This document shows positions 3,482 to 31,354 of a stretch of 64,000 nt of DNA, one piece after another. Under the pieces are notes generated by a model. The model had not been told where the DNA came from. It saw only the letters and a program-made list of their open reading frames with translations, and ran no database searches. The DNA lies in the NCBI RefSeq assembly GCF_000203975.2, contig NZ_AFCF02000009.1, forward strand, positions 62,001-126,000. Direction: 5' to 3'. The DNA comes from Leisingera sp. ANG1 (GTDB taxonomy: Bacteria > Pseudomonadota > Alphaproteobacteria > Rhodobacterales > Rhodobacteraceae). Every line of letters starts with the position of its first letter. Position 1 is the stretch's first letter. The position numbers and the translations under genes were made by a program.

Positions 3482-3997
3482 ATGGCCGGAAGTTCACAGA
3501 AATTCATTGCCCGCAACCGGGCACCAAGGGTCCAGATCGAATATGACGTGGAGCTGTATGGCGCCGAGAAGAAGGTGCAGCTGCCCTTCGTGATGGGCGT
3601 GATGAGCGACCTGGTGGGCAAATCCGAAGTGGAGCAGCCCGCCGTTGCGGACCGCAAGTTCCTGGAAATCGACGTGGACAACTTCGATGACCGGATGAAG
3701 TCGATGGCGCCGCGCGCCGCCTTCACCGTGCCCAACACGCTGACCGGCGAGGGCAACCTGGCGGTCGACATCACGTTTGAGAGCATGGACGATTTCAAGC
3801 CCGCCGCGATTGCCGCCAAGGTGGAGCCGCTGCGCGAGCTGCTGGAAGCGCGCACCCAGCTCAGCAACCTGATGACCTATATGGACGGCAAGACCGGTGC
3901 CGAGGATCTGATCTCCAAGATCATCCAGGACCCGAGCCTGCTGAAAACCCTGGCCGCGCAGCCGAAACCCGGCGGCGAAGCCGACAGCGAAGAATAA
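3482..3997 (+). CDS. tssB: T6SS contractile sheath small subunit TssB (VipA)
   Basis: 171 residues, normal for TssB/VipA/ImpB. Start ATG 3482 follows an aaggag ribosome site. Diagnostic blocks are SQKFIARNRAPRVQIEYDVE near the N-terminus, LPFVMGVMSDLVGKS, RKFLEIDVDNFDDRM and FESMDDFKPAAIAAKVEPL. With TssC it forms the cytoplasmic sheath whose contraction drives the Hcp tube and VgrG spike outward. The gene lies between tssA and tssC, 15 bases before tssC. A second copy of almost this whole protein (about 90% identical over 140 residues, counted by eye) forms the N-terminus of the giant fusion protein at 15279. Confidence 0.98.
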   Translation: MAGSSQKFIARNRAPRVQIEYDVELYGAEKKVQLPFVMGVMSDLVGKSEVEQPAVADRKFLEIDVDNFDDRMKSMAPRAAFTVPNTLTGEGNLAVDITFESMDDFKPAAIAAKVEPLRELLEARTQLSNLMTYMDGKTGAEDLISKIIQDPSLLKTLAAQPKPGGEADSEE

Positions 3998-4012: not shown

Positions 4013-5509
4013 ATGGCTGAAGAAGAACTCCAGGCGGAAGCCGCTGCTGGTGAAGCCGCCTTTGGCTCTGCCGAATTCGCGAGCCTGCTGCAGAAGGAAT
4101 TCCGTCCCAAGTCGGACCAGGCCAAGACCGCTGTTGAAAGCGCGGTCAAGACCCTGGCCGAGCAGGCGCTGGCAAACACCGCGCTGATTTCCGATGACGC
4201 GCTGCGCTCGATCGAGAGCATCGTGGCGGCGATTGACGAGAAGCTGACCGAGCAGGTCAACCTGATCCTGCACAACGAGGATTTCCAGCAGCTGGAAAGC
4301 GCCTGGCGCGGTTTGCATTATCTGGTCAACAACACCGAGACCGATGAGCAGCTGAAGATCCGGGTGATGCCAATCACCAAGAAGGAAATGTCGAAGACCC
4401 TGAAGAAGTTCAAGGGCACGGCATGGGATCAGTCGCCGATCTTCAAGAAGATCTATACCGAGGAATTCAGCCAGCTGGGCGGCGAGCCCTATGGCTCCCT
4501 GGTGGCCGACTATCACTTTGACCATTCGCCGCCGGATATCGAGCTGCTGGGTGAAATGTCCAAAATTGCAGCCGCCGCGCATGCGCCGCTGATCACCGGC
4601 GCCAAGCCGACCCTGTTCCAGATGGACAGCTGGGCGGAACTGTCGAACCCGCGCGATCTGACCAAGATCTTCCAGACCCCGGAATATGCCGCATGGCGCA
4701 GCTTGCGCGACAGCGAAGATGCGAAATACGTCGGGCTCGCGATGCCGCGCTTCCTGGGCCGTCTGCCCTATGGCTCCAAGACCGATCCGGTTGAGGAGTT
4801 CGCATTCGAGGAAGACACCGCAGGTGCCGGCAGCGAGAAATACGGCTGGGTCAACGCGGCCTATGGCATGGCGGTGAACATCACCCGCTCGTTCAAGATG
4901 TACGGCTGGTGCTCGCGCATCCGCGGCGTCGAGAGCGGCGGCACGCTGGAGAACCTGCCCAGCCACACCTTCCCGACCACCGATGGCGGCGTCGATCAGA
5001 AGTGCCCGACCGAGATTGCCATCGACGACCGGCGCGAGGCGGAACTGGCGAAGAACGGCATGATGCCGCTGATCCACCGCAAGAACACCGATGTTGCGAC
5101 CTTCATGGGCGCGCAGTCGCTGCACAAGCCGGCCGAATACGACGATCCGGACGCCACCGCCAACGCCAATCTGGGCGCGCGGCTGCCGTATCTGTTCGCC
5201 ACATGCCGGTTCGCGCACTATCTGAAGTGCATGGTGCGGGACAAAGTCGGCTCGTTCAAAAGCCGTCAGGACATGGAGTCCTGGCTGCAGGACTGGATCA
5301 ACAACTATGTTGATTTCAACGCAGACATCTCTTCGGAGACCGAGAAGGCGCGCAAACCTCTGGCCGCAGCTGAAGTGGTTGTGGAAGAGGTCGAGGGCAA
5401 CCCGGGGTATTACACCTCAAAATTCTTCCTGCGCCCGCATTACCAGCTGGAGGGGCTTTCCGTCTCGCTGCGTCTGGTATCGAAACTGCCCTCGGAAAAA
5501 GGAGGCTGA
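4013..5509 (+). CDS. tssC: T6SS contractile sheath large subunit TssC (VipB)
   Basis: 498 residues, the standard length. The N-terminal helix around residues 23-31 (FASLLQKEF) is the region that ClpV grips in characterised TssC proteins. The core shows FQQLESAWRGLHYLV, LKIRVMPITKKEM, YGSLVADYHFDHSPPD, KYVGLAMPRFLGRLPYG and KYGWVNAAYGMAVNI. The C-terminal sheath domain ends with FFLRPHYQLEGLSVSLRLVS, which interlocks with TssB in the assembled sheath. The ribosome site is gcggagga before ATG 4013. It follows tssB directly and precedes hcp by 67 bases. No missing blocks compared with the family. Confidence 0.98.
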   Translation: MAEEELQAEAAAGEAAFGSAEFASLLQKEFRPKSDQAKTAVESAVKTLAEQALANTALISDDALRSIESIVAAIDEKLTEQVNLILHNEDFQQLESAWRGLHYLVNNTETDEQLKIRVMPITKKEMSKTLKKFKGTAWDQSPIFKKIYTEEFSQLGGEPYGSLVADYHFDHSPPDIELLGEMSKIAAAAHAPLITGAKPTLFQMDSWAELSNPRDLTKIFQTPEYAAWRSLRDSEDAKYVGLAMPRFLGRLPYGSKTDPVEEFAFEEDTAGAGSEKYGWVNAAYGMAVNITRSFKMYGWCSRIRGVESGGTLENLPSHTFPTTDGGVDQKCPTEIAIDDRREAELAKNGMMPLIHRKNTDVATFMGAQSLHKPAEYDDPDATANANLGARLPYLFATCRFAHYLKCMVRDKVGSFKSRQDMESWLQDWINNYVDFNADISSETEKARKPLAAAEVVVEEVEGNPGYYTSKFFLRPHYQLEGLSVSLRLVSKLPSEKGG

Positions 5510-10359: not shown

Positions 10360-13083
10360 ATGACCGAGATCAGCCGCGTGGCGCTGTTTGGCAAATTGAA
10401 CAAGCTGGGATACCAGGCCGTCGAGAGCGCAACCGTGTTCTGCAAGATGCGCGGAAACCCTTATGTGGAACTGGTGCACTGGATGCATCAGCTGCTGGCA
10501 CAGCAGGACAGCGACATGCACCGGATCATTCAGCATTACGACCTGGACACCGGCAAGATTGCCAGCGAGCTGACCCGGGCGCTGGACATGCTGCCGCGCG
10601 GCGCCTCGACGATTTCCGACCTGTCGGACCATCTGATGGACGCGATGGAACGCGGCTGGGTCTGGGGCTCGCTGCTCTATTCCGCGGGCCAGGTGCGCAG
10701 CGGCCATCTGCTGCTGGGTATGCTGAAGACGCCGGCGCTGCGCAACATCCTGTCCAGCATGTCGCCGGAGCTGGCGAAGATTGGGGCTGATGACCTGGCC
10801 GACAATTTCCACGAGGCCACCGATGGCTCGCCCGAGGAACGGCTGGGGGCGCAGGACGGCTCTAATGTCACCGGCGGCGGGGCGGAACCGGGCGAGGCCT
10901 CGGGGTCGATGGCGCCGGGCGCGATGGGCAAGGGCGAGGCGCTGGAGCAGTTCTGCACCGACCTGACCGAACAGGCCCGCAATGGCGAGATCGACCCGAT
11001 CGTGGGCCGGGATGAGGAAATCCGCCAGATCGTCGATATCCTGATGCGGCGGCGCCAGAACAACCCGATCCTGACCGGTGAGGCGGGCGTGGGTAAAACG
11101 GCTGTGGTCGAGGGCTTTGCGCTGCGGATCGCACGCGGCGACGTGCCGCCGGCGCTGAAGGATGTGCGGCTCTTGGTGCTGGACGTGGGTCTGCTGCAGG
11201 CCGGGGCCAGCATGAAGGGCGAGTTTGAAAACCGCCTGCGCCAGGTGATCGACGAAGTGCAGGCAAGCCCGACGCCGATTGTGATGTTTGTGGATGAAAC
11301 ACACACGCTGGTCGGCGCGGGCGGCGCGGCAGGCACCGGCGATGCCGCGAACCTGCTGAAACCGGCGCTGGCGCGCGGCACCCTGCGCACCATCGGTGCC
11401 ACCACCTGGGCCGAGTATAAGAAATACATCGAGAAAGACCCGGCGCTGACCCGCCGCTTCCAGGTGGTCAAGGTTGAGGAACCCGGTATCCCGAAGGCGA
11501 TCCTGATGATGCGCGGCATTGCCTCAATGCTGGAGAACCACCACCGGGTGCAGGTGCTGGACGAGGGGATCGAGGCCGCCGTCAGCCTGTCGGCGCGCTA
11601 TATCCCGGCGCGGCAGCTGCCGGATAAGTCGGTGAGCCTGCTGGACACGGCCTGTGCGCGGGTCGCTGTCAGCCAGCACGCGGTGCCGGCCGAGGTCGAT
11701 GACAGCCAGCGCCGGATCGAGGCGCTGACCACCGAGCTGGAGATCATCGGCCGTGACGAGACTGCAGGGTATGAGGTTGCCGACCGGCGCGAGGCGGTGG
11801 AAGCGGCCAAGGCTGCCGAAGAGGAACGGCTGGCCGGGCTGACCGAGCGCTGGGACAAGGAAAAGGCGGTGGTCGAGGGCATTCTGGAGCTGCGCGCCAA
11901 GCTCCGGGAGGGGGCCGCGCCCGTGGATGCTGCCCCGGATGCTGGGGACGACGCTGCGGAGGGCGCTGCCGATAGCCCGCTGTCGGATGAAGAGCGCGCC
12001 AAGCTGATGCAGGAGCTGAAGGATAAGAACGCGGAGCTGGAAACGCTGCAGGGCGACTCTGCGCTGATCCTGCCGATTGTCGACCATCAGGCGGTGGCCT
12101 CGGTTGTCGGCGACTGGACCGGCATCCCGGTGGGCCGCATGGTCAAGGATGAGATCGAGACCATCCTGAACCTGGAAGAGCGGCTGGCGCAGCGGGTGAT
12201 CGGCCAGGATCACGCGATGAAGATGATCGCCAAGCGGATCCAGACCAGCCGCGCAGGACTTGATAATCCGAACAAGCCGATTGGTGTGTTCATGCTGGCC
12301 GGTACCTCTGGTGTGGGTAAGACCGAAACCGCGCTGGCGCTGGCCGAGGTGCTGTATGGTGGTGAGCAGAATGTCATCACCATCAACATGTCGGAGTATC
12401 AGGAGGCCCATACTGTCAGTTCGCTGAAAGGCGCACCTCCCGGCTATGTCGGCTACGGCGAGGGCGGGGTGCTGACCGAGGCGGTGCGGCGCAAGCCCTA
12501 TTCCGTGGTGCTGCTGGATGAGGTCGAGAAGGCGCACCCGGATGTGCATGAGATCTTTTTCCAGGTGTTCGACAAGGGCGTCATGGAAGACGGCGAAGGC
12601 CGCATCATCGACTTTAAGAACACGCTGATCCTGCTGACCTCCAACGTTGGCACCGAGACGATCATGGACTTGTGTTCCGATCCGGATCTGATGCCGGACC
12701 CGGAGGGCATGGCAAAGGCGCTGCGCGATCCGCTCTTGAAGGTGTTCCCGCCGGCGCTGCTGGGGCGTCTGGTGGCGATTCCGTACTATCCGCTCAGCCC
12801 GGAGATGATCGGCGAGATCACCAAGCTGCAGCTGGGCCGCATCCAGAAACGGGTGCAGGAGGCGCATGGGGTGCCGTTCGAATACACCGATGCTGTGGTC
12901 GAAGAGATCGTAAACCGCTGCCAGGAGCTGGACAGCGGCGGGCGTATGATCGACGCGATTGTCACCAACACCATGCTGCCGGAGATTTCCAACGAGTTCC
13001 TGCGCCGCCTGATGGAGGGTGCGGAGGTCGAGAAAGTCGCCATCGATGTCAAGGACGGAGAGTTCACCTACGCATTCGAATGA
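10360..13083 (+). CDS. tssH: T6SS sheath-recycling AAA+ ATPase TssH (ClpV)
   Basis: 907 residues, usual for ClpV. An N-terminal Clp-type domain covers about 1-160. NBD1 has Walker A GEAGVGKT at 240-247 and Walker B ending VDE near 308-312. A coiled-coil middle domain lies at about 440-560 with an acidic insert (AAPDAGDDAAEGAADS). NBD2 has Walker A GTSGVGKT at 648-655, Walker B LLDEVEKAHPDV near 716 and sensor motifs beyond. ClpV binds the N-terminal helix of TssC in contracted sheaths and disassembles them with ATP so subunits can be reused. Both ATPase sites look catalytically complete. It is the last core gene before three unusual genes. Confidence 0.97.
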   Translation: MTEISRVALFGKLNKLGYQAVESATVFCKMRGNPYVELVHWMHQLLAQQDSDMHRIIQHYDLDTGKIASELTRALDMLPRGASTISDLSDHLMDAMERGWVWGSLLYSAGQVRSGHLLLGMLKTPALRNILSSMSPELAKIGADDLADNFHEATDGSPEERLGAQDGSNVTGGGAEPGEASGSMAPGAMGKGEALEQFCTDLTEQARNGEIDPIVGRDEEIRQIVDILMRRRQNNPILTGEAGVGKTAVVEGFALRIARGDVPPALKDVRLLVLDVGLLQAGASMKGEFENRLRQVIDEVQASPTPIVMFVDETHTLVGAGGAAGTGDAANLLKPALARGTLRTIGATTWAEYKKYIEKDPALTRRFQVVKVEEPGIPKAILMMRGIASMLENHHRVQVLDEGIEAAVSLSARYIPARQLPDKSVSLLDTACARVAVSQHAVPAEVDDSQRRIEALTTELEIIGRDETAGYEVADRREAVEAAKAAEEERLAGLTERWDKEKAVVEGILELRAKLREGAAPVDAAPDAGDDAAEGAADSPLSDEERAKLMQELKDKNAELETLQGDSALILPIVDHQAVASVVGDWTGIPVGRMVKDEIETILNLEERLAQRVIGQDHAMKMIAKRIQTSRAGLDNPNKPIGVFMLAGTSGVGKTETALALAEVLYGGEQNVITINMSEYQEAHTVSSLKGAPPGYVGYGEGGVLTEAVRRKPYSVVLLDEVEKAHPDVHEIFFQVFDKGVMEDGEGRIIDFKNTLILLTSNVGTETIMDLCSDPDLMPDPEGMAKALRDPLLKVFPPALLGRLVAIPYYPLSPEMIGEITKLQLGRIQKRVQEAHGVPFEYTDAVVEEIVNRCQELDSGGRMIDAIVTNTMLPEISNEFLRRLMEGAEVEKVAIDVKDGEFTYAFE

Positions 13084-13119
13084 TCACACAATTTGGTAAC
13101 AAGTGGGGAAGGAGTTCCT

Positions 13120-14367
13120 ATGGTTAAACATGTTGTTATGGACATGAAAAACGTCGATGTCGGCGCGTCTGGGCTGGAGATGGTCAAGCCGCCCAAGCTG
13201 TCCTTCAAGGTTGTGGTCGAGCTCGATAAGAAAATGGAGAAGGGGGTCGAGAAAGACCCGCTTCTGCAGCAGGAGTTCCATGCCGGTGCCAGCGAGGTCT
13301 TTGAGCAGACCCGCGACACCATTGAGAAGAAGTGCAAGGTGTTCGACAAGGCCTTTGTCGAGATGGCCAACAAAGGCGCTGACAAGAAGGCGATGGAGAA
13401 GCAGCTGAAGGGGCTGAACGACGCCATCAAGAACGACATCAAGGTCGGCGAGAAGGCGGCGGAGCTGGCGGCGCAGAAGGCCTGGACGAACCTTCAGAAG
13501 AAGAAAAAGGAATGGTCCAAGTTTAAGATCAAGGTGGGGGTGTCGATTGCCGGCACTTTGGCCGGTCTGGCGGTGAGCATCGCGGCAATGGCAACCTCGC
13601 CGTTTTCCGGCGGTGCGGGCGCGGCCTTTGGCATCATCGGGCTGATCAAGTCCGGCGTCACGCTGGCCAAGGACATTGGCAAGCTGGCGATCAATATCGA
13701 CCAGTCCAAGACCATCCTGGTGAAGAACCTGGCGGTGGTGGAAAAGGCGGCCTCCAACAAGGCGCTGAATGCCACCAACGAGGTGTCGGCGGCGGTGTTC
13801 CAGGAGTTTCTTGGCATCTCGCAGCCGTCGGTCAAGACGGTCGAGGATGCGGCGGATACGCTGAAGGCCAAGTACGCCCAGATGGTCGTCAAGATGCATG
13901 ACCTGTCGAAGAACCTGAACAAGATCCTGAAGCAGCAGGAAAAGCTGAAGAAGGAATTCCTGGCCGAGGTCGGCAAGAAGCTGAAGAAACACCCTGTCAA
14001 GGATAAGAAGACGCAGCTGGTGATGATCAGCAAGGCGCTGGATACGGCGTTGGCGAAAAACTATGCCGAGGTGCAGAACGCGATCGACAAGATCCAGATC
14101 ATGTATGCCGATGCCCGCGGCTGGGCCAACAACATCAAGGACCTGATGAAGCGGGTGAAGGCGCTGACGATCAAAGACCCCAAGGCGCTGAAGGTGTTCC
14201 GCGAAGGGCTGAAATTTGCAGCTCTGGCACTGTCGCCGATCGACGGCAACTCGATCGCCACCGGCGCCAAGGATCTGGCTCTGGGCGTGGGCGGCGCGGT
14301 GGGTGGCTACGCCTATGACAAAATCACCAGCAAGGTGCTGGACGGGACTGTGTTCGACGCGGCCTGA
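13120..14367 (+). CDS. Helical protein with hydrophobic hairpin, pore-former-like; function unknown
   Basis: 415 residues from ATG 13120, chosen for the aaggag ribosome site (an upstream start would add nine residues). No signal peptide. Residues 30-135 are Lys/Glu-rich amphipathic helix (VVVELDKKMEKGVEKDP, LQKKKKEWSKFKIK). Residues 138-180 form a strongly hydrophobic, Gly-containing hairpin (GVSIAGTLAGLAVSIAAMAT, then GAAFGIIGLIKSGVTLAKDI). Long helices follow (MVVKMHDLSKNLNKILKQQE). A second apolar stretch near the C-terminus (LALGVGGAVGGYAYDK) completes it. This layout, long helices flanking a buried hairpin, resembles alpha-helical pore-forming toxins of the ClyA/HBL/XaxA type; that comparison is structural inference only. 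It lies directly after tssH and upstream of the Nav channel, so it could be a T6SS cargo, a membrane scaffold or a regulator. Confidence 0.75.
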   Translation: MVKHVVMDMKNVDVGASGLEMVKPPKLSFKVVVELDKKMEKGVEKDPLLQQEFHAGASEVFEQTRDTIEKKCKVFDKAFVEMANKGADKKAMEKQLKGLNDAIKNDIKVGEKAAELAAQKAWTNLQKKKKEWSKFKIKVGVSIAGTLAGLAVSIAAMATSPFSGGAGAAFGIIGLIKSGVTLAKDIGKLAINIDQSKTILVKNLAVVEKAASNKALNATNEVSAAVFQEFLGISQPSVKTVEDAADTLKAKYAQMVVKMHDLSKNLNKILKQQEKLKKEFLAEVGKKLKKHPVKDKKTQLVMISKALDTALAKNYAEVQNAIDKIQIMYADARGWANNIKDLMKRVKALTIKDPKALKVFREGLKFAALALSPIDGNSIATGAKDLALGVGGAVGGYAYDKITSKVLDGTVFDAA

Positions 14368-14431: not shown

Positions 14432-15286
14432 TTGGACAGCAGCGCGCAATCCGCAGAGACGCTTCGGGACAAGGCCCGTGAATTTGTCGAGCGCAGGTCG
14501 GTGACCAATGCCATTCTGGGCATCATCATCTTTAACGCCATCACGCTGGGCCTCGGCACCTCTGCTGCGGTGCGGGCGCATGCGGGCGGGCTGCTGGATG
14601 TGATCGACACCACCGTACTGGCAATCTTTGTGCTGGAGCTGGCGCTGAAGTTGTTTGCCTACGGCTGGCGGTTCTTTTCCTCGGCCTGGAATATCTTTGA
14701 CCTTGTCGTCGTCTCCTTCGGCCTGTTCCCGGACAGCCAGGGCCTGTCGGCGCTGCGCGGCCTGCGGGTGGTGCGGGCGCTGCGGCTTTTGTCGGTCATT
14801 CCGCAGATGCGGGCGGTTGTGCAGGCACTGCTGGATGCCTTGCCGGGCATGGGCGCGGTGATTGTTATGATCTCCATCGTGTTCTACGTCTTCGGGGTGA
14901 TGGCGACGATGATGTACGGCGCTGCATTTGACGAATGGTTCGGCACGCTGGGCCGGTCGCTGTATTCGCTGTTCCAGATCATGACACTGGAAAGCTGGTC
15001 GATGGGCATCGTGCGCCCGGTGATGGAGGAGTTCCCCTTCGCCTGGTCGTTCTTTGTGCCGTTCATCGTGATCACCGCCTTTTCCGTTTTGAACCTGTTC
15101 ATCGGCCTTTTGGTCAACACCATGCAATCCGCGGTGGAAGCGGATGCGGAGGCAGAGTTCGAGAAGCTGCGCGAACTGGTGAAGTCAGAGACAGATGTGG
15201 TGGATGAGCATGTCCGGGAGATGCATGAGGAGATCAAGGCGCTGCGGGCTGAGCTGGCCGAGCTGAAAGGGCAGGGCAATGGCTGA
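14432..15286 (+). CDS. NavBac-type voltage-gated sodium channel
   Basis: 284 residues from TTG 14432, preceded by a ggtggag ribosome site; no ATG fits. It is a six-helix ion-transport protein. S1-S3 lie in the first 100 residues and S4 carries regularly spaced arginines (LRGLRVVRALRLLS). S5 is FYVFGVMATMMYG. The pore helix and selectivity filter read MTLESWSMGIVRP, essentially the NavBac filter TLESWSM, and S6 is SFFVPFIVITAFSVLNLFIG. A C-terminal coiled coil (HVREMHEEIKALRAELAELK) assembles the tetramer as in NaChBac. Known members are Na+-selective inner-membrane channels found in marine bacteria, including roseobacters. The stop overlaps the start of the giant sheath fusion by 8 bases, so the channel is translated with T6SS proteins. 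Its role there is unknown. Confidence 0.93.
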   Translation: MDSSAQSAETLRDKAREFVERRSVTNAILGIIIFNAITLGLGTSAAVRAHAGGLLDVIDTTVLAIFVLELALKLFAYGWRFFSSAWNIFDLVVVSFGLFPDSQGLSALRGLRVVRALRLLSVIPQMRAVVQALLDALPGMGAVIVMISIVFYVFGVMATMMYGAAFDEWFGTLGRSLYSLFQIMTLESWSMGIVRPVMEEFPFAWSFFVPFIVITAFSVLNLFIGLLVNTMQSAVEADAEAEFEKLRELVKSETDVVDEHVREMHEEIKALRAELAELKGQGNG

Positions 15287-18200
15287 CAGCTCGCAGAAAT
15301 TCATCGCCCGGAACCGGGCGCCCAGGGTCCAGATTGAATATGACGTGGAGCTCTATGGCGCCGAGAAGAAGGTGCAGCTGCCCTTTGTCATGGGGGTGAT
15401 GAGCGATCTGGTGGGCAAGTCCACGGTAGAGCAGCCCGCGGTGGCGGACCGCAAGTTCCTAGAGATCGACGTTGATAATTTTGATGAGCGGATGAAGGGC
15501 CTGGCGCCGCGCGCCGCCTTCACCGTGCCCAACACGCTGACCGGCGAGGGCAACCTGGCGGTGGATCTGACGTTTGAGAGCATGGCGGATTTCGCGCCCG
15601 GTGCGATTGCCGCCAAGGTGGATGCGCTGCGCCCGCTGCTGGAGGCGCGCACCCAGCTGCAGAACCTGATGGCCTATATGGACGGCAAAACCGGGGCCGA
15701 GACGCTGATCGAGACGATCCTGAACGACCCGTCGCTGCTGGCGGCGGTGTCTGCACCCGCCGCGGATGCAGAGAGTGCCGCGGCGCTGGACAGCCTGCGC
15801 AATCTGGAACTGCCGGAGGAAGAGGCGGACACCACGGGTGACGTGCTGGCCGGCCTTGCCGCGCAAGCGCCAGAAGATACCGCGCCTGAGGACACATCCG
15901 GCGGGGTTCTGGATGCGCTGCGCGACGCCGCGCCGGAAGCTGCGGAGCCGGAAGACACGTCAGCGGACGTGCTGGCCGGTTTGAGCGCGGCGGCGCCTGA
16001 GGACACAGACCAGCCGGATGAAGCCGCAGATGCCCTGGCGTCGCTGGCCGCGGCTGAGGTTCCGGAGACTGTTGAGGAAGATACCTCTGCGTCGGTGCTG
16101 GAGGGGCTGGCCCAGGCTGACCTTCCGGAAGAAGAGGAAGACACGTCCGGTGAGGTGCTGGCCGGGCTTTCCGCACAGGCCCCGGAAGAAGCTGAAGCAG
16201 AGGATGGCTCCGGCAGCGTTCTGGATGACTTGCGGGCTGCTGAGCCTGAGCAGGCTGAAACGGATGATGGGTCCGCTGATGTGCTGGCGGGCCTGAGCGC
16301 TGCCGCACCCGAAGAAGAAGACCAGGGCGATGAGGCCGGAGAGGCGCTGGCCTCGCTCGCGGGCGCTGAGGTTCCTGAGGCTGAAGAGGACGATCAGACG
16401 GATTCTGTCCTCGAAGGGCTGGCGCAGGCGGACCTCCCCGAAGAGGACGAGGACACCTCTGGCGATGTGCTGGCCGGGCTGGCGGCGCAGGATGTGGAGG
16501 AGGCGGCCGAAGAAGATACCGCGGGAGCGGCGCTGGAAAGCCTGGCGTCCGTTGAAGTGACTGACGCGGAAGAAGAGGATCACGCTGGTGTGCTGGATGC
16601 GCTGGCGGATCTGGATGTGCCGGAAGAAGCCGATACGGCGGCTGATGATGCGCTGGAGAGCCTCGCCTCTGTCGAGATTGCGGAGGATGGCGAAGAAGAC
16701 CATTCCGGCGTGCTGGATGCCTTGGCAGATGCCGCGGTGGAAGAGGATGAAGACACCGCAGCGGAGGATGCGCTCGAAAGCCTTGCCGCTTTGGAGACCG
16801 GCGATGACGCGGAAGAAGACACTGCGGGCGCAGCTTTGGAGAGCCTTGCGGCTGCGGATGTGCCGGACGCTGACGAGGAAGAGGACCATGCCTCGGTTCT
16901 GGATGAGCTGGCCGCGATCGAGGTGGAGGATGAGGCCGATGATGCTGCAGGCGCCGCGCTGGAGAGCCTTGCAGCCGCAGAGGTGGCAGAGACTGAAGAT
17001 GAGGACCATTCGGACATTCTGGAGGGGCTGGCAGATCTGGAACCGGACGCGGCTGAGGAGGAGGATGACTCTGGTGCGGCTTTGGAAAGCCTGGCTGCGG
17101 TGGATGTTGCCGAAGACGAAGATGACGATGTTTCCGATGTTCTGACCGGGCTTGCAAATACGGATCTGGCAGAGGAAGACAGCGGCGAAGAGGCCGCTGC
17201 GGCCCTGGAGAGCCTGGCGGACGCGGTTGTGTCCGATGATGAAGAAGACGCCGGATTGGACGACGTGCTTGACGGGCTGCTGGAGGAGGCGCCCGGGGAG
17301 GACGAAACCGCCAGCGATACCGAAGATGCGCTGGAAAGCCTCGCCGCAGTTGAGATCGAAGATGCGGAAGATGACGGCTCCGATGATATTCTGGACGGTC
17401 TGCTCGACGCTGCGCCTGAAGAGGATGACGCGGAAGGTGACGACCTGAGCGCCGTTCTGGACAGCCTTGATGCGCCCGAAGAAGCCGGAGAGGCGGAGGA
17501 TGCCGGGGATATCCTGGCCGGCCTGACAGAGGGCGCGCCTGAGGAAGACACGGATGCCGGCACTGATCTGGATGACATCCTGGGCGGTCTTGAGGAACCG
17601 GAGGACGACGCCGGCGAAGAGGATCTGAGCGCGGCGCTGGATACGCTGGAGGCTCCTGAGGCAGCTGAAACCGAAGACAGCGGTCTGGACGATCTGCTTG
17701 CGGATCTTGGTAGTGATGAACCGGAAGAGGCTGCGGAGGATGGCGCTGATGATGTGCTGGCAGGCCTCGCGGACGCCGGCATTGAGGAGGATGCAGAAAG
17801 CAGCGGGGCCGATTTGGGGGCTTTGCTGGAGGATGACGATGAGGCGGAAGACTCCGCCAAAGACAGCGATCTGGACAGCCTGTTGGGAGACCTGGGCGGC
17901 GAGGATGATGCCGCGGACGAACTTGATGCGCTTATGAGCGGTGCGGAGGAAGAGACCGCAACTGAGGCCGCTGACGGCGAAGACGGGTTGGATGATCTTC
18001 TAGGCAGTTTGGATGCGGCGGAAGAGGAAGACACAGACAATTCTGATCTTGATGCGCTTTTGGCTGGCGATGAGGACTCTGCTGGGGCTGAGGATGATCT
18101 GGACGCCTTGCTGGGCGGTTTGGACGAGCCGGAAGAGAGTGCCCCGGAGGAAACGGATAGCAGCGCGGACGCCGGTGAGGATGGCCTGGACGCGCTGCTT

Positions 18201-20366
18201 GGCGGTCTGGATGAGGACGAGGCCGGCGGGGACGCCAGCCTGGATGACCTGCTGGGCGATCTTGGCAGCGATGAGGAAGACGACGGCGATCTGGATGGTC
18301 TGCTGGCAGGGCTTGGCGAGGAAGCGGAAGCCGAAGAGGCAGAGGACGCGGACAGTGCCGAAGACGACCTCGATGCGCTGCTGGGCGGTCTGGGGGACGC
18401 AGATGCGGATCTTGACAGCCTGATGGGCGGTGACAGCGGGGATATGGACCTGGATGATCTGCTTGGCGATTTAGGCGGTGACGACGAGGACACCGCCGAG
18501 GCCGGCGGCGATGATCTGGATGCGCTTCTGGGGGATCTGGACGAGGGCGGCGATGAACCGGCTGCGGCGGCAGAGGTCTCGGACGAGCCGGAGTTTGCCT
18601 ATGGCACCATGAGCGCGGAGCGGCCGGCTGCGCAGAAGCTTGAGCGCAAGCGGTTCCGGATGGCGATCCTGGGCGACTTCTCAGGCCGCGCGGCCAAGGG
18701 GATTATCGAAACTGGCGATGCGCTGGCAGCGCGCAAAGCGGTGCTGCTGGATCCGGATACGGTTGAGGACGTGATCGAGAGCTTCGCCACCGAACTGGTG
18801 CTGCCGATCGGCAAGGACGGTGCGGGCATTGCGGTCAAGCTGGAGGACCTGGACGGGCTGCACCCGGATGAGCTCTTTGAAAACGTGGAGCTGTTTTCCG
18901 AGCTGGTTGGCCTGCGCAAGCAATTGCAAAGCGGCGCAACGGCGGATCATGCGGCGGGGACGCTGAAAGCCTGGGCAGAGAAATTCGGCACCAAAGCACG
19001 GGCGCCGAAACGGACCTCGGCCGGGAATTCGGTGCCGGCTGACAAGCGACTGAGCGCCTTCCAGCAACTGATCGGCGACACTGGCAACACGCTGCGCGAG
19101 GCCTCGCCGGTGGAGGATTTGCTGGCGCGCGTTGTGGGGCCGCATATCCGGGCACTGCCAGATCCCGATGTGGCGGCGATGCAGAAGGCGGTGGATGAGG
19201 CGCTGTCAGATGCGATGCGGCTGGTGCTGCATCACCCGGAGTTCCAGTCGGTGGAAGCGCAGTGGCGCTCGCTGGATCTAATGGCGCGGTCGATTGAAGC
19301 GGACGATACGCTGGATGTGATGCTCTATGACATCTCGGCAGAGGAGCTGGCGGCGGATCTGGCCGCCGAGGACGACCTGTCAAAAACCGGTTTCGTGCGG
19401 CTGCTGACCGAGGAGCCGCTGGACGAGGAGAACGGGCGCGGCGGCTATTCGGCGCTGATCGGGATGTACCAATTCGAGGAAACCCCTCCGCATGCCGAAT
19501 TGCTGGGCCGGATCGCGCGGGTGGCGGCGCATGTGGACGCGCCTTTCTTTGCCTCCATTTCGCCGGAGTTCCTGAAAACGCCCAAGGCGGAGCGTCCCAA
19601 GCTGGTGGCCGATGCCTGGAACACGCTACAGGGGATGGCGGAGGCAGGCCATCTGGGGTTGGCCAGCCCGCGGTTCCTGCTGCGCCGGCCCTATGGCGAA
19701 AAAACCGATCCCTGCTATGAGTTTGATTTCGAGGAGTTTACCGAAACGGAAGGCCTGAAGGGTATGCTCTGGGCCAATCCGGTGGTGCTGGTGGCGATCC
19801 TGCTGGGGCGGTCGTTCACGGAACACGGGCCGTCGCTGCAGCTGGGTAAAATTATGTCTCTTGGAGGGATGCCCTATCATTATGTGAACGACAAGTTCGG
19901 CGACCAGGTGGCGCTGCCCTGCACCGAGCGCAATATCGATCTGGACAAGATCGCATTGGCGCAGGAACGCGGGTTCATGGCGGTGAGCGCGGTCAAGGGA
20001 CGGGACGAAGTGCGGCTGACCTCGTTCAACTCTCTGAAGGGCGGCGAGATTCTGGGGCCCTGGACCGGATTGCCGGCGCCGGAGCCCTCGCCGCCGGATC
20101 CGCGCGGGCTGCCGAAGCCCAAACCGCCTGCGGATAGCGGCGGTGATGAAGACGAAGACCTGGATCTTGATTTGGATTTGGGCGGAGACGATGAGGACGA
20201 TCTCGGCCTGGATGATCTTGATTTCGGAGGCGATGACGGGGATGACGATGGCCTCGGGGATCTGGATGACTTGTTGTCGTCGTTTGGGGATGACGATGAT
20301 GACGACGGTGGGGATGATGATGACGAAATGGATGCGGACCTCGCCGCGCTTTTGGATGATTTGTGA
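15279..20366 (+). CDS. Giant T6SS sheath fusion: TssB + acidic repeats + TssB-like + truncated TssC
   Basis: 1695 residues in one open frame. Residues 1-150 are a TssB almost identical to the one at 3482 (about 90% over 140 residues by eye). Residues about 160-1105 are extremely acidic Ala/Asp/Glu/Leu/Gly sequence with about 45 copies of a short helix motif (such as LDALLGGLDE or DVLAGL). At about 1126-1250 comes FRMAILGDFSGRA with a layout like TssB (second, divergent TssB-like domain). At about 1270-1600 comes a TssC core (EFQSVEAQWRSLDLM, HLGLASPRFLLRRPYGEKTD) that stops before the C-terminal sheath domain of TssC. An Asp-rich tail closes the protein (1618-1695). TssB'-TssC' proteins starting RILVLGDFSGR are known from other T6SS loci, as I recall; the TssB head and repeat spacer are unusual. 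The start overlaps the Nav gene by 8 bases; vgrG follows. Confidence 0.95.
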   Translation: MADSSQKFIARNRAPRVQIEYDVELYGAEKKVQLPFVMGVMSDLVGKSTVEQPAVADRKFLEIDVDNFDERMKGLAPRAAFTVPNTLTGEGNLAVDLTFESMADFAPGAIAAKVDALRPLLEARTQLQNLMAYMDGKTGAETLIETILNDPSLLAAVSAPAADAESAAALDSLRNLELPEEEADTTGDVLAGLAAQAPEDTAPEDTSGGVLDALRDAAPEAAEPEDTSADVLAGLSAAAPEDTDQPDEAADALASLAAAEVPETVEEDTSASVLEGLAQADLPEEEEDTSGEVLAGLSAQAPEEAEAEDGSGSVLDDLRAAEPEQAETDDGSADVLAGLSAAAPEEEDQGDEAGEALASLAGAEVPEAEEDDQTDSVLEGLAQADLPEEDEDTSGDVLAGLAAQDVEEAAEEDTAGAALESLASVEVTDAEEEDHAGVLDALADLDVPEEADTAADDALESLASVEIAEDGEEDHSGVLDALADAAVEEDEDTAAEDALESLAALETGDDAEEDTAGAALESLAAADVPDADEEEDHASVLDELAAIEVEDEADDAAGAALESLAAAEVAETEDEDHSDILEGLADLEPDAAEEEDDSGAALESLAAVDVAEDEDDDVSDVLTGLANTDLAEEDSGEEAAAALESLADAVVSDDEEDAGLDDVLDGLLEEAPGEDETASDTEDALESLAAVEIEDAEDDGSDDILDGLLDAAPEEDDAEGDDLSAVLDSLDAPEEAGEAEDAGDILAGLTEGAPEEDTDAGTDLDDILGGLEEPEDDAGEEDLSAALDTLEAPEAAETEDSGLDDLLADLGSDEPEEAAEDGADDVLAGLADAGIEEDAESSGADLGALLEDDDEAEDSAKDSDLDSLLGDLGGEDDAADELDALMSGAEEETATEAADGEDGLDDLLGSLDAAEEEDTDNSDLDALLAGDEDSAGAEDDLDALLGGLDEPEESAPEETDSSADAGEDGLDALLGGLDEDEAGGDASLDDLLGDLGSDEEDDGDLDGLLAGLGEEAEAEEAEDADSAEDDLDALLGGLGDADADLDSLMGGDSGDMDLDDLLGDLGGDDEDTAEAGGDDLDALLGDLDEGGDEPAAAAEVSDEPEFAYGTMSAERPAAQKLERKRFRMAILGDFSGRAAKGIIETGDALAARKAVLLDPDTVEDVIESFATELVLPIGKDGAGIAVKLEDLDGLHPDELFENVELFSELVGLRKQLQSGATADHAAGTLKAWAEKFGTKARAPKRTSAGNSVPADKRLSAFQQLIGDTGNTLREASPVEDLLARVVGPHIRALPDPDVAAMQKAVDEALSDAMRLVLHHPEFQSVEAQWRSLDLMARSIEADDTLDVMLYDISAEELAADLAAEDDLSKTGFVRLLTEEPLDEENGRGGYSALIGMYQFEETPPHAELLGRIARVAAHVDAPFFASISPEFLKTPKAERPKLVADAWNTLQGMAEAGHLGLASPRFLLRRPYGEKTDPCYEFDFEEFTETEGLKGMLWANPVVLVAILLGRSFTEHGPSLQLGKIMSLGGMPYHYVNDKFGDQVALPCTERNIDLDKIALAQERGFMAVSAVKGRDEVRLTSFNSLKGGEILGPWTGLPAPEPSPPDPRGLPKPKPPADSGGDEDEDLDLDLDLGGDDEDDLGLDDLDFGGDDGDDDGLGDLDDLLSSFGDDDDDDGGDDDDEMDADLAALLDDL
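15770..18580 (+). repeat. Long low-complexity acidic repeat tract inside the sheath fusion gene
   Basis: About 2.8 kb encoding some 45 short motifs spaced roughly 15-25 residues apart. The first half uses SVLEGLAQ/ALESLAA forms separated by EEDED linkers. The second half uses DLDALLGGLDE and DLDDLLGDLG forms. No stop or frameshift interrupts it, so it is under coding selection. Confidence 0.9.
15837..16460 (+). repeat. Two tandem 312-bp (104-codon) coding repeats
   Basis: Unit 1 is 15837-16148 and unit 2 is 16149-16460. Each encodes exactly 104 residues with five aligned VLAGL/VLDAL-type motifs and the same ending (QADLPEEEEDTS against QADLPEEDEDTS). The third unit, from 16461, begins the same way (GDVLAGLAAQ) and then diverges. 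The equal length with visibly diverged bases indicates an old in-frame tandem duplication. Confidence 0.85.
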
Positions 20367-23488: not shown

Positions 23489-24955
23489 ATGGGAGTGACA
23501 CTGAAATTCCAGAGCTCGGGCGCGATGCCCGGCGATGCGGCCCCTGTTCCGATGCGGGGGCCGAGCCTGACGGTGGGGCGCGGTGCCAGCTGTGACTTGG
23601 TGCTGCCGGACCCGGACCAGATGCTGTCGCGCAATCACTGTGTGATCGAGGATCACAATGGCAATGTGGTGGTGGTCGACCTCAGTTCCAACGGCACCTT
23701 TCTGAACTATTCGAAGATCCCGCTGGGCCGCACCCCGACGCCGCTGAACAACGGCGATGTGCTGTGCGTCGGCAATTATGAGCTGGTGGTGGAAATCCGC
23801 GATGACCTGGCCGATGTCGGCGACATGATCGCGGCACCCGCGGCGCAAGGGGCAGCCTCGCACGGGAATGCGGCCAATGCGCCTGACCCCTTGCAGCTGC
23901 TTGAGGATGCGGGTCCGGGCGGCGATTTCCTGGATGACTTGCTGGGCGAAGGGCCGAAGGGGCCTGCGCAGTTCACCCCGGTGGACCCGATCGACGAGCT
24001 TTTGCCGCCCTTGGGTGAGGACGAGGATCCATTCTTCCAGAAGGCCAGCGACGGGCGCGAAGGGGAGGGGGCCAGCCTGCCCAATCACAATCCGACCGCC
24101 TCGGACGGGTTTTCAGCACCCGCGTCGCAGTCCAGCCTGATCCCCGACGATTGGGATGATGATTTCCTGTCCGGCATCGGCGAGCCGGAAAATCCGGTTC
24201 CCCAGCCGGACCCTCAGCCTGCACAGCCCCCGCGCGAGGTGCCGCAGCCGCCAACCGAGGTCCCGCCCACGGCCCCGCCGCAAGAAGCACCGCCCGCGCC
24301 GCCGCAAGAAATCCCGCCGCAGCAGGACACAGCAGAGAAGACAATCGCGCCTGCCGCTGCGCCTTCGCAAGAGGCACAGGAAGCGGTAGAAGCGTTTCTA
24401 AAAGGGGTCGGCGCAGACGTCGGCCTCGATCCGGCGGAGCACGCCAGCACCATGGCGCGGATGGGCCGGGTGATGAAAACACTGGTCACGGGCTTGCGCG
24501 AAATCCTGATGACCCGGACCTCGATCAAGTCCGAGTTCCGGATTGAACAGACGATGATTTCTGCCGGCGGAAACAACCCGCTGAAATTCTCGATCACGCC
24601 GGAACAAGCCATCGAGGCGATGGTGCGCCCGGCGACCAAGGGCTACCTGTCGCCTGAGACTGCCGCCGAAGAGGCGCTGCGGGATATCAAGGCGCATGAA
24701 GTGGCGATGGTCACCGGCATGGAGGCAGCGCTGAAAGGCGTGCTGAAGCGGCTCGACCCCAAGGCGCTGGAAGCGCAGATCGAGGACAAGGGCGGCTTTA
24801 CCGGCCTCTTGCGCGGCAAGAAGGCGCGGTACTGGGATGTATACGAGCAGCTTTATGCGGAGATTTCCGACCAGGCTGAGAATGATTTTCACGACCTGTT
24901 CAGCCGCGAATTTGCGCGGGCCTACAAGGACCAGCTGGACAGGCTGAAGGAATGA
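23489..24955 (+). CDS. tagH: T6SS-associated FHA-domain protein (TagH/Fha-like)
   Basis: 488 residues. The FHA domain is at about 25-105 with its phosphothreonine-binding signatures LTVGRGASCDLVL, LSRNHCVI and LSSNGTFLN. Residues about 130-230 form an acidic linker with GDFLDDLLGEG and PIDELLPPLGEDED, short motifs very like those repeated in the giant sheath fusion. A Pro-rich stretch (about 232-285) leads to a helical C-terminal domain (GRVMKTLVTGLREILMTRTS, FHDLFSREFARAYKDQLDR) typical of T6SS FHA proteins. In the threonine-phosphorylation pathway PpkA phosphorylates Fha, and PppA reverses it, to control assembly. Both enzymes are encoded nearby. Confidence 0.93.
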   Translation: MGVTLKFQSSGAMPGDAAPVPMRGPSLTVGRGASCDLVLPDPDQMLSRNHCVIEDHNGNVVVVDLSSNGTFLNYSKIPLGRTPTPLNNGDVLCVGNYELVVEIRDDLADVGDMIAAPAAQGAASHGNAANAPDPLQLLEDAGPGGDFLDDLLGEGPKGPAQFTPVDPIDELLPPLGEDEDPFFQKASDGREGEGASLPNHNPTASDGFSAPASQSSLIPDDWDDDFLSGIGEPENPVPQPDPQPAQPPREVPQPPTEVPPTAPPQEAPPAPPQEIPPQQDTAEKTIAPAAAPSQEAQEAVEAFLKGVGADVGLDPAEHASTMARMGRVMKTLVTGLREILMTRTSIKSEFRIEQTMISAGGNNPLKFSITPEQAIEAMVRPATKGYLSPETAAEEALRDIKAHEVAMVTGMEAALKGVLKRLDPKALEAQIEDKGGFTGLLRGKKARYWDVYEQLYAEISDQAENDFHDLFSREFARAYKDQLDRLKE

Positions 24956-27785: not shown

Positions 27786-30700
27786 TCCGCCGTTATATCT
27801 TTCCCCTGTTCCGGTCGATCTACACCATCCTGCTGATTCTGGCTGCGGTTCTGTCGGCCTGTGTGTGGTATTTTGCACCTTTCATCGGCAGCGATGACTG
27901 GCGGCCGTTTGACGGCGTGATGGCGCGGCTGATCACCATCGGGGTGATCTTCCTGCTGTATTTCATCATCATCGGCATCATCTTCTGGCGCCGCCGCCGC
28001 AAGGACAAGGAGATGACCGAGGAGATGGCGGAGGCCGTTGATACCTCGGAAGATGATGTCTTGTCCGAGGAAATCGGCGAGCTGCGCGGCAAGTTTAAGG
28101 ACGCGATGAAGGAGCTGCGCAAGTCCAAGGGCGGGCGGCGGCACCTGAACGACTTGCCGTGGTACATCATGATCGGCCCGCCGGGTGCCGGTAAGACCAC
28201 TGCCATTGTGAACTCAGGCCTGCAGTTCCCGCTGGCTGAGAAGATGGGCAAGGCCGCCATCGGCGGCGTCGGCGGCACCCGTAACTGCGATTGGTGGTTC
28301 ACCAATGAGGCGGTGCTGATCGACACCGCCGGGCGCTATACCACGCAGGAAAGCGATGCCGAGGCGGATAATGCGGCCTGGCTTGGCTTCCTCGGGCTGT
28401 TGAAGAAGTACCGCAAGCGGCAGCCGATCAACGGTGCGATCATTGCGATCTCGCTGTCGGATCTGTCCTTGCAGGATGAGATCACCCAGAAAAGCCACGC
28501 CGCCGCTGTGCGCCGCCGCCTGGCGGAGCTGCGCGAGAAACTGGGCGTGCGCTTCCCGGTCTATGTGCTGTTCACCAAGGCCGACCTGATTGCCGGCTTC
28601 CAGGAGTTCCATGACTCTTTAGGCAAGGAGGACCGCGAGCAGGTCTGGGGCTTCACGCTGCCCTTGCCCAAGGGCAAGAAAGAACAGCCGCCAATTGCCG
28701 GGTTTGACGAGGAATTCGGCCTGCTGCTGGGGCAGATCAACGCGCAGCTGCTGGAGAAGATGCAGACCGAGACCGACCATCAGCGCCGGGCGCTGATTGC
28801 GGGCTTCCCGGCGCAGGTCGCCTCCATGCGCGCAGTTGCGCGCGAGTTCCTGATGGAGGTGTTCCAGGACAACCGTTATGAGCAGCGCCAGATGCTGCGC
28901 GGGGTCTATTTCACCTCCGGCACCCAGGAAGGCACGCCGATCGACCGGCTGATGCTGGGTATGGCGCAGACCTTTGGCATCGGGCGCCAAGCGATTGGCA
29001 CGGGGCAGGGCACGGGGCGCAGTTTCTTCCTGACCCGCTTGTTCGAGAGCGTGATGTTCCCCGAGGCCGGTCTGGTATCGGCGGATGACAAGGTCGAGCG
29101 CCGCTACCGCTGGACCCGCCGGATTGCGATTACTGCCACAGTGCTGGTGGCAATTGCGATGGGGGCGCTGTGGGTGCGGTCTTATCTCAAGAACACCGAT
29201 CTGATTGCTCAGGCTGAAGGCCAGGTTGCGGCCTATCAGGCTGCCGCGGCGCAGCTTCCGCCCAGTCCGGTCGGCGATACCGATCTGGTGCCGGTAGCCG
29301 CCGCGCTGAACAACTTGCGCGACATGCCCGGCAACCCGGTGTTGTCCGATCCGGAGCCTGACGGGGCCATGACCTATGGGTTGTATCAGGGCGAAGTGAT
29401 CGGCACCCAGGCGGCGCAGACCTACCGCGGGGCGCTGAACCGGCGTCTGCTGCCGCGGCTGCTGGTGCGCCTGGAGCAGCAGATCGAGGGGAATATGAAC
29501 AACCCCGACACGCTGTATGAGGCGCTGAAGATCTATCTGATGCTGGGCCTTCAAGGGCCAATGAACCCCGATCTGGTCAAGGAGTGGATGCGCCTTGACT
29601 GGGAGAACATTGCCTATCCCGGTATCGCTCGCAACCAGTTGCGCGCTGATCTGACGGATCACCTCACCGCGCTGCTGTCGCAGCCGATGGAGGAAATCGC
29701 GCTCAACGGCCCGCTGATCGAGCAGGCACAGAACATCCTGTCGGAGATGCCCCTGGCCCAACGGGTCTATAACGGCATCCTGAATTCACAGCAGGCGACG
29801 GCGCTGCCGAAATGGCGGATCACCGATGTTGGCGGCCCGTCGGTCAAGCGGGTGCTGGTGCGCAGTTCCGGCAAGCCGCTGAACGACGGGATCGAAGGGA
29901 TCTTTACCTTTGACGGTTTCCACAACGTGTTCCTGCCGGAGGCGGTCAGCGTTGCCGAACGGGTCCACCGTGAGGCCTGGGTGCTCGGCGATAACAATGA
30001 AGCGTCCCAGAACGAGGCGGTTCTGCTGAAGCTCAGCCGCGATGTGCTGGATCTCTATTATAACGATTACATCAGCCGCTATGATCAGATCCTGGGCGAC
30101 ATCGACATTGTGCCGCTGGAGTCGCTGTCGCATGCGGTAGAAGTCACCAATGTGCTGTCGGGGCCGACTTCGCCGATCGTCAATATCCTGACCGACGTCA
30201 GCAACGAGACCCGGCTGAACGAGGATAAATCCGTTCTGGATGCGGGCACTTTGGCCGCGGGTGCCCAGAACGTGGCCGCGATTGAGGCGCGCTCGAACCT
30301 GTCGATCCAGGGACAGATTCTGCTGGAGGCGCTGGTCGGCTCTGCCGAAAATGCACCCGGTCAGGCGGCCAAGCCGCCGGGGGCCTATGTGCAGGAACGG
30401 TTCCAGTGGCTGTATGACCTGGTCAACCGGCCCGAGGGGCAGCCCTCGCAGCTGGATGATCTGATGGGGCAGTTGCAACTGGTCTATCAGGAGCTGAACA
30501 AGATGTCCTTCTCTGGCGTCGCCACGGGCGGCCAGAGCGGTCAAGCGCTGTTGCAGTTCCAGCAGACCGCCAGCCGGATGGGCGGGCCGCTGCCCCGCTG
30601 GGCAACGCAGATTTCGGCCGGATCGTCGGGCATCACGTCGGAAGGCACCCGGGCTTCGATCAACGCGCGCTGGCAATCGGCGGTGCTGCCGTTCTGCGAG

Positions 30701-31354
30701 AAAGCACTGGCGAACCGCTATCCCTTCAACCGCTCGGCACGTGCCGATGTGGCGATGGCGGATTTTGCCAAGCTGTTCTCCCCGAACGGGATGATCGACA
30801 GTTTCTTCAATGAGCATCTGCTGAAATACGTCGACACCCGCAGCCGGCCCTGGACATGGAAGCGCGTCAATGACGTGGATCTGGGCATCAGCCCTGCGGT
30901 GCTGCAGCAGATGCAATACGCATCTGAGATCAAGGAAGCCTTCTTTGCCGGCGGGGCGCAGCCTGCGGTGAACTTCCAGATCACCGTCAACGCGCTGGAC
31001 CCCAAGGCCAAGGAAGTGCTGCTGGAGATCGACGGCACCAAGGTGGCCTACAACCACCGCTCTGGTGCACCGACGCCGGTGGCGGTGACCTGGCCGGGCT
31101 CTGTCGGTCTGGCTCGGCTGACTTTACTGCCGCAAAAACGGGATAGCGAGAACGTGCTGTCGCGGGACGGGCCCTGGGCCTGGTTCCGGCTGTTGGATGC
31201 GGCGGAGGTGCGGCGCACCAATGTCTCTGACCGGCGGCGGGTGAACTTCCGCGTCGGCGGGCGACTGGCGCTGTTCGAGTTGCAGTCCGGGTCCGTTATC
31301 AACCCCTTCGCCCTGCCTGCCATGGCGAAATTCAGCTGCCCGAAGTCAATGTGA
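27782..31354 (+). CDS. tssM: T6SS membrane protein TssM (IcmF)
   Basis: 1190 residues. Two N-terminal membrane helices (about 14-35 and 48-70) precede a cytoplasmic NTPase-like domain with Walker A GPPGAGKT at 132-139 and an intact downstream VLIDTAGRY. A third helix at about 447-467 leads into a large periplasmic part (about 470-1190) containing the IcmF-related and C-terminal beta domains (KEVLLEIDGTKVAYNH, VTWPGSVGLARLTLLP). TssM spans the envelope and links the baseplate to the outer membrane, normally via the lipoprotein TssJ, which is not found here. Start overlaps tssL (ATGA) and stop overlaps tagF (TGATG). Confidence 0.97.
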   Translation: MIRRYIFPLFRSIYTILLILAAVLSACVWYFAPFIGSDDWRPFDGVMARLITIGVIFLLYFIIIGIIFWRRRRKDKEMTEEMAEAVDTSEDDVLSEEIGELRGKFKDAMKELRKSKGGRRHLNDLPWYIMIGPPGAGKTTAIVNSGLQFPLAEKMGKAAIGGVGGTRNCDWWFTNEAVLIDTAGRYTTQESDAEADNAAWLGFLGLLKKYRKRQPINGAIIAISLSDLSLQDEITQKSHAAAVRRRLAELREKLGVRFPVYVLFTKADLIAGFQEFHDSLGKEDREQVWGFTLPLPKGKKEQPPIAGFDEEFGLLLGQINAQLLEKMQTETDHQRRALIAGFPAQVASMRAVAREFLMEVFQDNRYEQRQMLRGVYFTSGTQEGTPIDRLMLGMAQTFGIGRQAIGTGQGTGRSFFLTRLFESVMFPEAGLVSADDKVERRYRWTRRIAITATVLVAIAMGALWVRSYLKNTDLIAQAEGQVAAYQAAAAQLPPSPVGDTDLVPVAAALNNLRDMPGNPVLSDPEPDGAMTYGLYQGEVIGTQAAQTYRGALNRRLLPRLLVRLEQQIEGNMNNPDTLYEALKIYLMLGLQGPMNPDLVKEWMRLDWENIAYPGIARNQLRADLTDHLTALLSQPMEEIALNGPLIEQAQNILSEMPLAQRVYNGILNSQQATALPKWRITDVGGPSVKRVLVRSSGKPLNDGIEGIFTFDGFHNVFLPEAVSVAERVHREAWVLGDNNEASQNEAVLLKLSRDVLDLYYNDYISRYDQILGDIDIVPLESLSHAVEVTNVLSGPTSPIVNILTDVSNETRLNEDKSVLDAGTLAAGAQNVAAIEARSNLSIQGQILLEALVGSAENAPGQAAKPPGAYVQERFQWLYDLVNRPEGQPSQLDDLMGQLQLVYQELNKMSFSGVATGGQSGQALLQFQQTASRMGGPLPRWATQISAGSSGITSEGTRASINARWQSAVLPFCEKALANRYPFNRSARADVAMADFAKLFSPNGMIDSFFNEHLLKYVDTRSRPWTWKRVNDVDLGISPAVLQQMQYASEIKEAFFAGGAQPAVNFQITVNALDPKAKEVLLEIDGTKVAYNHRSGAPTPVAVTWPGSVGLARLTLLPQKRDSENVLSRDGPWAWFRLLDAAEVRRTNVSDRRRVNFRVGGRLALFELQSGSVINPFALPAMAKFSCPKSM

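Follow-up and report, generated by a model that had tools for sequence, protein, structure and literature searches.

The TssCL frame and its domains

We analysed a 64,000-nucleotide stretch of Leisingera sp. ANG1 DNA (contig NZ_AFCF02000009.1, positions 62,001 to 126,000; hereafter the window). A type VI secretion system (T6SS) cluster is present, and inside it lies an uninterrupted frame of 1695 aa at 15279-20366 on the + strand (Table 1). According to the translation, the frame consists of a copy of TssB (the head), about 940 acidic residues (the spacer), a core made of a divergent TssB-like domain (TssB') and a shortened TssC-like domain (TssC'), and an Asp-rich tail. Pfam detects PF05591 (VipA/TssB) in two stretches, of which the better corresponds to residues 10-158 and the second is weak (32.8 bits), and PF05943 (VipB N-terminal) at residues 1303-1586. 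PF18945, the gpW/gp25-like last domain, was not found in the fusion by Pfam, and the separate TssC carries it at residues 381-492. The separate tssB and tssC of the cluster are both open and keep their Pfam domains. The translation and Pfam bear out the initial annotation, which joined a near-copy of TssB, acidic repeats, a TssB-like domain, a TssC core and an Asp-rich tail in one frame.

A protein of this kind was described in Leisingera in 2022 as TssCL (Suria et al., PMC9515649). In the main text of that paper, TssCL has 1684 aa with two VipA domains and one VipB domain, the first VipA is 86.2% identical to that of TssB, and the function is untested. The window frame likewise has two PF05591 stretches and one PF05943. 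Its first VipA is 87.7% identical to the cluster TssB (135 of 154 residues), its second is only weakly similar, and its roseobacter T6SS cluster retains separate tssB and tssC. The size, the order of VipA, second short VipA and VipB, and the genus are also alike, and no difference in kind from the published account is seen; its main text is silent on the acidic array and on the channel gene described below. Judged by its domains, the window protein is TssCL, already known from marine roseobacters, and the architecture is not new because that paper already describes it. The initial annotation regarded the order of head, spacer and core as new unless a description of it existed, and this view is abandoned. 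No functional study of TssCL, and no second paper with that name, was found in a literature search that left out most subscription journals and bioRxiv preprints. The new points here are the unit array, the tail motifs with their likeness to TagH, the arm-less core, the spread of headless forms, the clusters lacking TssCL and the preceding channel gene.

Relatives were compared at 80 named loci, which rank best among 509 confirmed ones; their genomes overlap those of the family survey below, and the two sets are not additive. A head is present in 51 loci (L086 and L089 are cut within it), 21 have no head in frame, and 8 are cut before the head. The frame with its head is unbroken in all four closed roseobacter plasmids (Leisingera sp. 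S132, L. methylohalidivorans, Phaeobacter sp. G2 and Ruegeria conchae). Since the frame is open in these plasmids and headed in 51 of the 80 loci, mis-assembly of two genes, against which the initial annotation wished the long frame to be checked, is ruled out. The fusion is thus confirmed as a real protein-coding frame of a published kind, to which points of anatomy and distribution are added.

The coding sequence (CDS) listed in the four closed plasmid records begins within the spacer or near the core, and the gene table of the collection is incomplete. In these four (L068, L069, L071 and L072), the TssB head is left off the listed CDS. Annotation therefore conceals the fusion architecture. 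In the draft genome of Pseudophaeobacter leonis (L088), the frame is broken between the spacer and the core, and the head lies in the preceding frame.

Table 1. Positions of TssCL parts and of other cluster genes in the window
Feature	Position	Strand	Basis
TssB head (residues 1-160), with TssB N-terminal arm and TagJ-binding segment of the P. aeruginosa homologue	15279..15758	+	PF05591, TIGR03358, 4uqz_B
Acidic spacer, units of ~20-21 residues with phi-L-x-x-L motif, 43 motifs	15759..18584	+	Motif count
TssB' (TssB-like domain of core), without N-terminal arm, approximate boundaries	18642..18938	+	Profile matches to TssB1, AlphaFold model
TssC' (TssC-like domain of core), PF05943 without PF18945	19185..20036	+	Pfam; match to 5n8n_B
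Tail motif 1, LDDLLSSF in the window, LDDLLAGF as family form	20262..20285	+	Alignment A1
C-terminal motif MDADLAALLDDL	20328..20363	+	Alignment A1
Separate tssB	3482..3997	+	Open frame, Pfam
Separate tssC, both VipB domains	4013..5509	+	Open frame, Pfam
clpV (tssH), charged-groove class, R6 and D87 conserved	10360..13083	+	
BacNav-type voltage-gated channel gene	14432..15286	+	PF00520, 5hvx_A; start estimate based on the annotated length in Leisingera S132
tagH (FHA protein; named from order in Leisingera record), linker motif DFLDDLLG from residue 146	23489..24955	+	

The TssB head

The head is a nearly complete TssB. It matches P. aeruginosa TssB1 (4uqz_B, E 8.9e-73), and the whole fusion scores 201.9 bits against TIGR03358 (cut-off 97.25). 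The difference from TssB/VipA (P. aeruginosa TssB1/HsiB1, 4uqz, 5n8n) is that the head is joined to about 1535 additional residues. The DNA of the head is 88% identical to the local tssB over 424 bases, and over 480 bases the changes at codon positions 1, 2 and 3 number 18, 14 and 48. Codon changes among relatives are also mainly silent. The head is under strong purifying selection, with omega of 0.009-0.127 in 13 comparisons between relatives, in which distant pairs approach silent saturation (pS up to 0.68). In a tree of heads and TssB rows, the heads are not one clean clade (4 changes, 2 forced), and the L060 head groups with its own TssB at 98/91 support. For these reasons, the heads may have been acquired separately or altered by gene conversion, as far as the tree of sequences indicates. 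At L102 (Sulfitobacter sp. M05), divergence has left the head with 35% identity to its best match, and the spacer and core are retained.

The acidic spacer

Among the 934 spacer residues taken, 350 are Asp or Glu and 4 are Lys or Arg. The last 77 residues of the protein are similarly composed, with 40 Asp or Glu and no Lys or Arg. The spacer contains 43 phi-L-x-x-L motifs about 20-21 residues apart. As the mean over 1000 shuffles was 6.6 and the maximum 15, the motifs are not due to chance. With a slightly wider pattern, 47 of the 51 headed relatives exceed all 200 shuffles in motif number. In the 51 headed relatives, the spacers are 166-1196 aa long with 1-56 motifs, and length and number are correlated (r=0.95). 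Such variation in length speaks against a strict ruler. The organization of the TssCL spacer as an array of motif units of about 21 residues is a new detail over the published description.

The TssB'-TssC' core

The part of TssB1 matched by the core profiles begins at about residue 32-35 and ends at 128-134, so that the N-terminal arm is absent. On the TssC side, the core matches 5n8n_B residues 29-333 of the 461-residue TssC1 chain. The truncation of TssC noted in the initial annotation thus stands, and the loss is roughly the last quarter rather than the last third. In the AlphaFold model, the core takes the form of a single-chain sheath body that has neither the N-terminal arm of TssB nor the handshake domain of TssC. 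It shares the sheath-body fold with single-chain sheath proteins of R-type pyocins and extracellular injection systems (3j9q, 9qgl, 6rao), aligned from about residue 20 to about 285-305, and differs in lacking the ends of those chains. Against viral models, Foldseek returned weak matches, of which the top ones and many others are tail sheath proteins. The full-length L133 model, which bears on docking of the head on the core, is of poor quality (pLDDT 52.5, pTM 0.44). The profile matches and the predicted model show that the core has lost strands of the handshake mesh. As these strands are lost, the core should not polymerise.

The core differs from TssC/VipB (P. aeruginosa TssC1, 5n8n) in having no gpW/gp25-like domain and in matching TIGR03355 at 136.2 bits, below the cut-off of 271.5. 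Some other alphaproteobacteria have a second, TssC-related protein next to the regular tssC (ImpD/TssC40-like by position only), and this kind of protein was considered for the core. The four such proteins compared have both VipB domains and no TssB domain, and the core has neither PF18945 nor the full TssC length and does contain a TssB domain; this identity is ruled out. Atu4340/ImpD, which lies outside the comparison, is listed in a table of PMC3702570 as required for Hcp secretion.

Distribution and origin

In the family survey, 295 genomes of the window's family were searched for the core. Of these, 72 gave a match: in 32, among them the window's own, the match is a core with 49-100% identity, and in 40 it is TssC only. 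The 32 comprise 22 with a head, 7 without and 3 that run into a contig end. When the class was sampled evenly (385 genomes, the window's included), one additional clear core match (G441) came up, which is headless. The nearest cores to that of the window are from Leisingera. All 51 headed forms of the named loci are alphaproteobacterial. The headless forms include metagenome-assembled genomes of Acetobacteraceae, Rhodospirillales, Planctomycetota and Verrucomicrobiota, and also Eleftheria terrae, a betaproteobacterium; in contrast, the main text of PMC9515649 reports TssCL from Alphaproteobacteria only. These headless forms agree with the statement in the initial annotation that shorter TssB'-TssC' proteins exist.

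Because the short form is wider than the long form and the C-terminal motif is common to both, the head and spacer are probably later additions, joined to an older TssB'-TssC' protein. The core tree, which is unrooted, was made by a quick method that warned of long branches; on it, the head state requires 6 changes, 4 of them forced. No T6SS gene was seen beside the headless core in L142 (8 of its frames, Pfam) or in L186 (15 window queries). On the Eleftheria terrae plasmid stretch (L070) that bears a T6SS with a headless core, RebB-family R-body genes are also present at about 30217-31419.

Seven orthologous clusters lacking TssCL, picked from 40 TssCL-less genomes for similar TagH or layout, have the same gene order, and in each vgrG comes next after clpV, with a gap of 75-554 bp in six and 1454 bp in one. 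Neither TssCL nor the channel was found in these clusters. Since orthologous clusters do without it, TssCL is, by gene content, an accessory part of this T6SS. With tssB and tssC intact, this agrees with the initial annotation, which took it for an added part and not a replacement.

Tail motifs and the likeness to TagH

The TssCL tail holds two conserved motifs, one LDxLL-like (74 of the 80 named loci with a looser pattern) and one terminal of the MDADLAALLDDL type (77 of 80). Both, like the array, resemble a motif in the linker of TagH. The pattern LD[DAES]LL[GASVD] occurs in 72 of 80 TssCL and 60 of 71 TagH frames; among 362 other recognised frames, 2 contain it. The strict pattern FL[DE][DESA]LL is found in 59 of 71 TagH frames and in none of 726 other + frames of at least 200 aa, TssCL included; TssCL carries the looser form only.

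TagH of TssCL-less clusters was sampled at 30 loci, one each from 30 of the 40 genomes. Measured against TagH of TssCL clusters, the eight nearest the window's class reach 385-674 bits; the remaining 22 reach 78-169 bits, and all of them lack the strict motif. One of the eight (L199) has a variant of the strict motif. Because close clusters without TssCL keep it in TagH, the LDDLLG-like motif, as its occurrence indicates, is a feature of this class of T6SS, and TssCL is not its partner. The DUF6931 protein was tried as the partner by co-occurrence and rejected; it is present in 31 of the 40 TssCL-less genomes and does not discriminate.

Possible role of TssCL

We tentatively propose, at somewhat less than an even chance, that TssCL is a scaffold attached to the sheath, which does not itself polymerise and which either recruits the partner of TagH or competes for it. 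The proposal is based on the array and the two C-terminal motifs, which resemble the TagH linker motif. The head, a fully equipped TssB, would most likely pair with TssC and enter the sheath like any TssB. As the TssB C-terminus lies at the outer surface in published sheath structures, the acidic array would hang outside the sheath on a long flexible tether. Its far end would present a single-chain sheath body incapable of polymerising. The multivalent motifs would bring the partner of TagH to the sheath, or compete with TagH for it, and the scaffold would thereby tune assembly or turnover.

Several points weigh against this scaffold. The contact between TssCL and the sheath is a prediction only. 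The spacers of L126, L128, L129 and L133 (4 of 51 headed relatives) do not exceed the shuffles, and 20 of the 80 named loci are headless (21 less L088). Neither the array nor the head is therefore essential to the core. The motif is missing from 11 of the 71 TagH frames beside a core, and the strict motif occurs independently of TssCL in 7 of the 30 TagH frames from TssCL-less clusters, all among the eight closest to the window's class. The partner of the motif was not found; DUF6931 was the candidate tried by co-occurrence.

The core could instead be a sheath terminator or distal cap, as the initial annotation suggested; it would dock on the last ring and, without an acceptor domain, stop growth. 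The sheath-body fold and the absence of PF18945, the domain for the handshake with the next subunit, are in agreement with a cap. However, the TssB N-terminal arm is also absent, so that the core is seemingly neither donor nor acceptor and unable to join a ring at either face, and the gene is absent from some orthologous clusters. A cap is thus weakened and seems unlikely.

It is somewhat more doubtful that TssCL is an assembly brake or decoy, whose head would tie up TssC (or TagJ), or poison sheaths as they grow, and so limit firing. A complete and strongly constrained TssB in an accessory protein fits a brake, but the conservation of the core and motifs in headless forms is left without explanation. 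A sheath-to-baseplate linker, which the initial annotation suggested beside the brake, is a further possible role.

There is a rather small chance that the array is a docking site which brings ClpV to the sheath, its repeats imitating LLDEIM, the N-terminal helix of VipB. VLDGLL and ILDGLL are among the repeats that resemble LLDEIM and ILDSII. The EFASLL of the local TssC is also the form in P. aeruginosa HsiC1, which has no LLDEIM-type motif according to PMC4239648. Docking of the VipB type would call for a cognate ClpV of uncharged groove, whereas the window ClpV conserves R6 and D87 as in P. aeruginosa ClpV1. It belongs to the charged-groove class, in which the groove is reported to be blocked for such helices, and this reading is therefore disfavoured.

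It is hardly credible that two genes were mis-joined or that the long frame is not translated as one: the internal CDS starts in the closed plasmid records and the frame break in the draft L088 could be taken in this sense, but the four unbroken plasmid frames, the head at 51 loci, the low omega of the head and the 1684-aa form in print (PMC9515649) contradict it.

TssCL is a natural experiment on the contractile sheath, in which a flexible motif array links a complete TssB to a single-chain sheath body that has no arms. Should TssCL prove to tune the assembly of sheaths, it would represent an unusual kind of sheath regulator, and through the motif that it shares with TagH one would have a handle on the route of the FHA pathway to the machine.

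Neighbouring genes and the channel

The tssB, tssC, hcp, tagJ (ImpE), channel and DUF6931 genes were named by Pfam, vgrG by NCBIfam and clpV by its match to ClpV1. The names tssA, tssE, tssF, tssG, tagH, tssK, DotU protein, tssM, tagF, PP2C phosphatase and Ser/Thr kinase follow from the gene order of the Leisingera sp. S132 plasmid alone.

The channel gene ends in a stop codon that overlaps the ATG of TssCL. Its product is similar to bacterial voltage-gated sodium channels of solved structure; the best match is 5hvx_A (E 2.2e-75), and the NavAb entry 6p6w is among the matches. It contains TLESWSM, which we take to be the NavAb-type filter. The channel is present in 43 of the 54 named loci with core, clpV and vgrG (tblastn, E 1e-15), and in 70 of 85 over all, the sets overlapping. 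No paper that mentions type VI secretion, roseobacter and sodium channel together was found in the literature searched. As a speculation to which we give very little weight, the channel and TssCL might act as a single module through which the state of the membrane reaches the sheath. The channel would sense voltage or sodium flux, and TssCL, anchored to sheath subunits by its TssB head, would alter the availability of the TagH partner through its motif array. Membrane damage would in this way govern whether the T6SS is assembled or recycled.

Between clpV and the channel, a frame of 424 aa (13093-14367) has no Pfam match, and Leisingera S132 annotates a hypothetical protein there. At 36599-37348, a small protein with GGDGGDGGG repeats adjoins the frame at 37367-38866, the likely counterpart of which is called caspase family in the Leisingera record.

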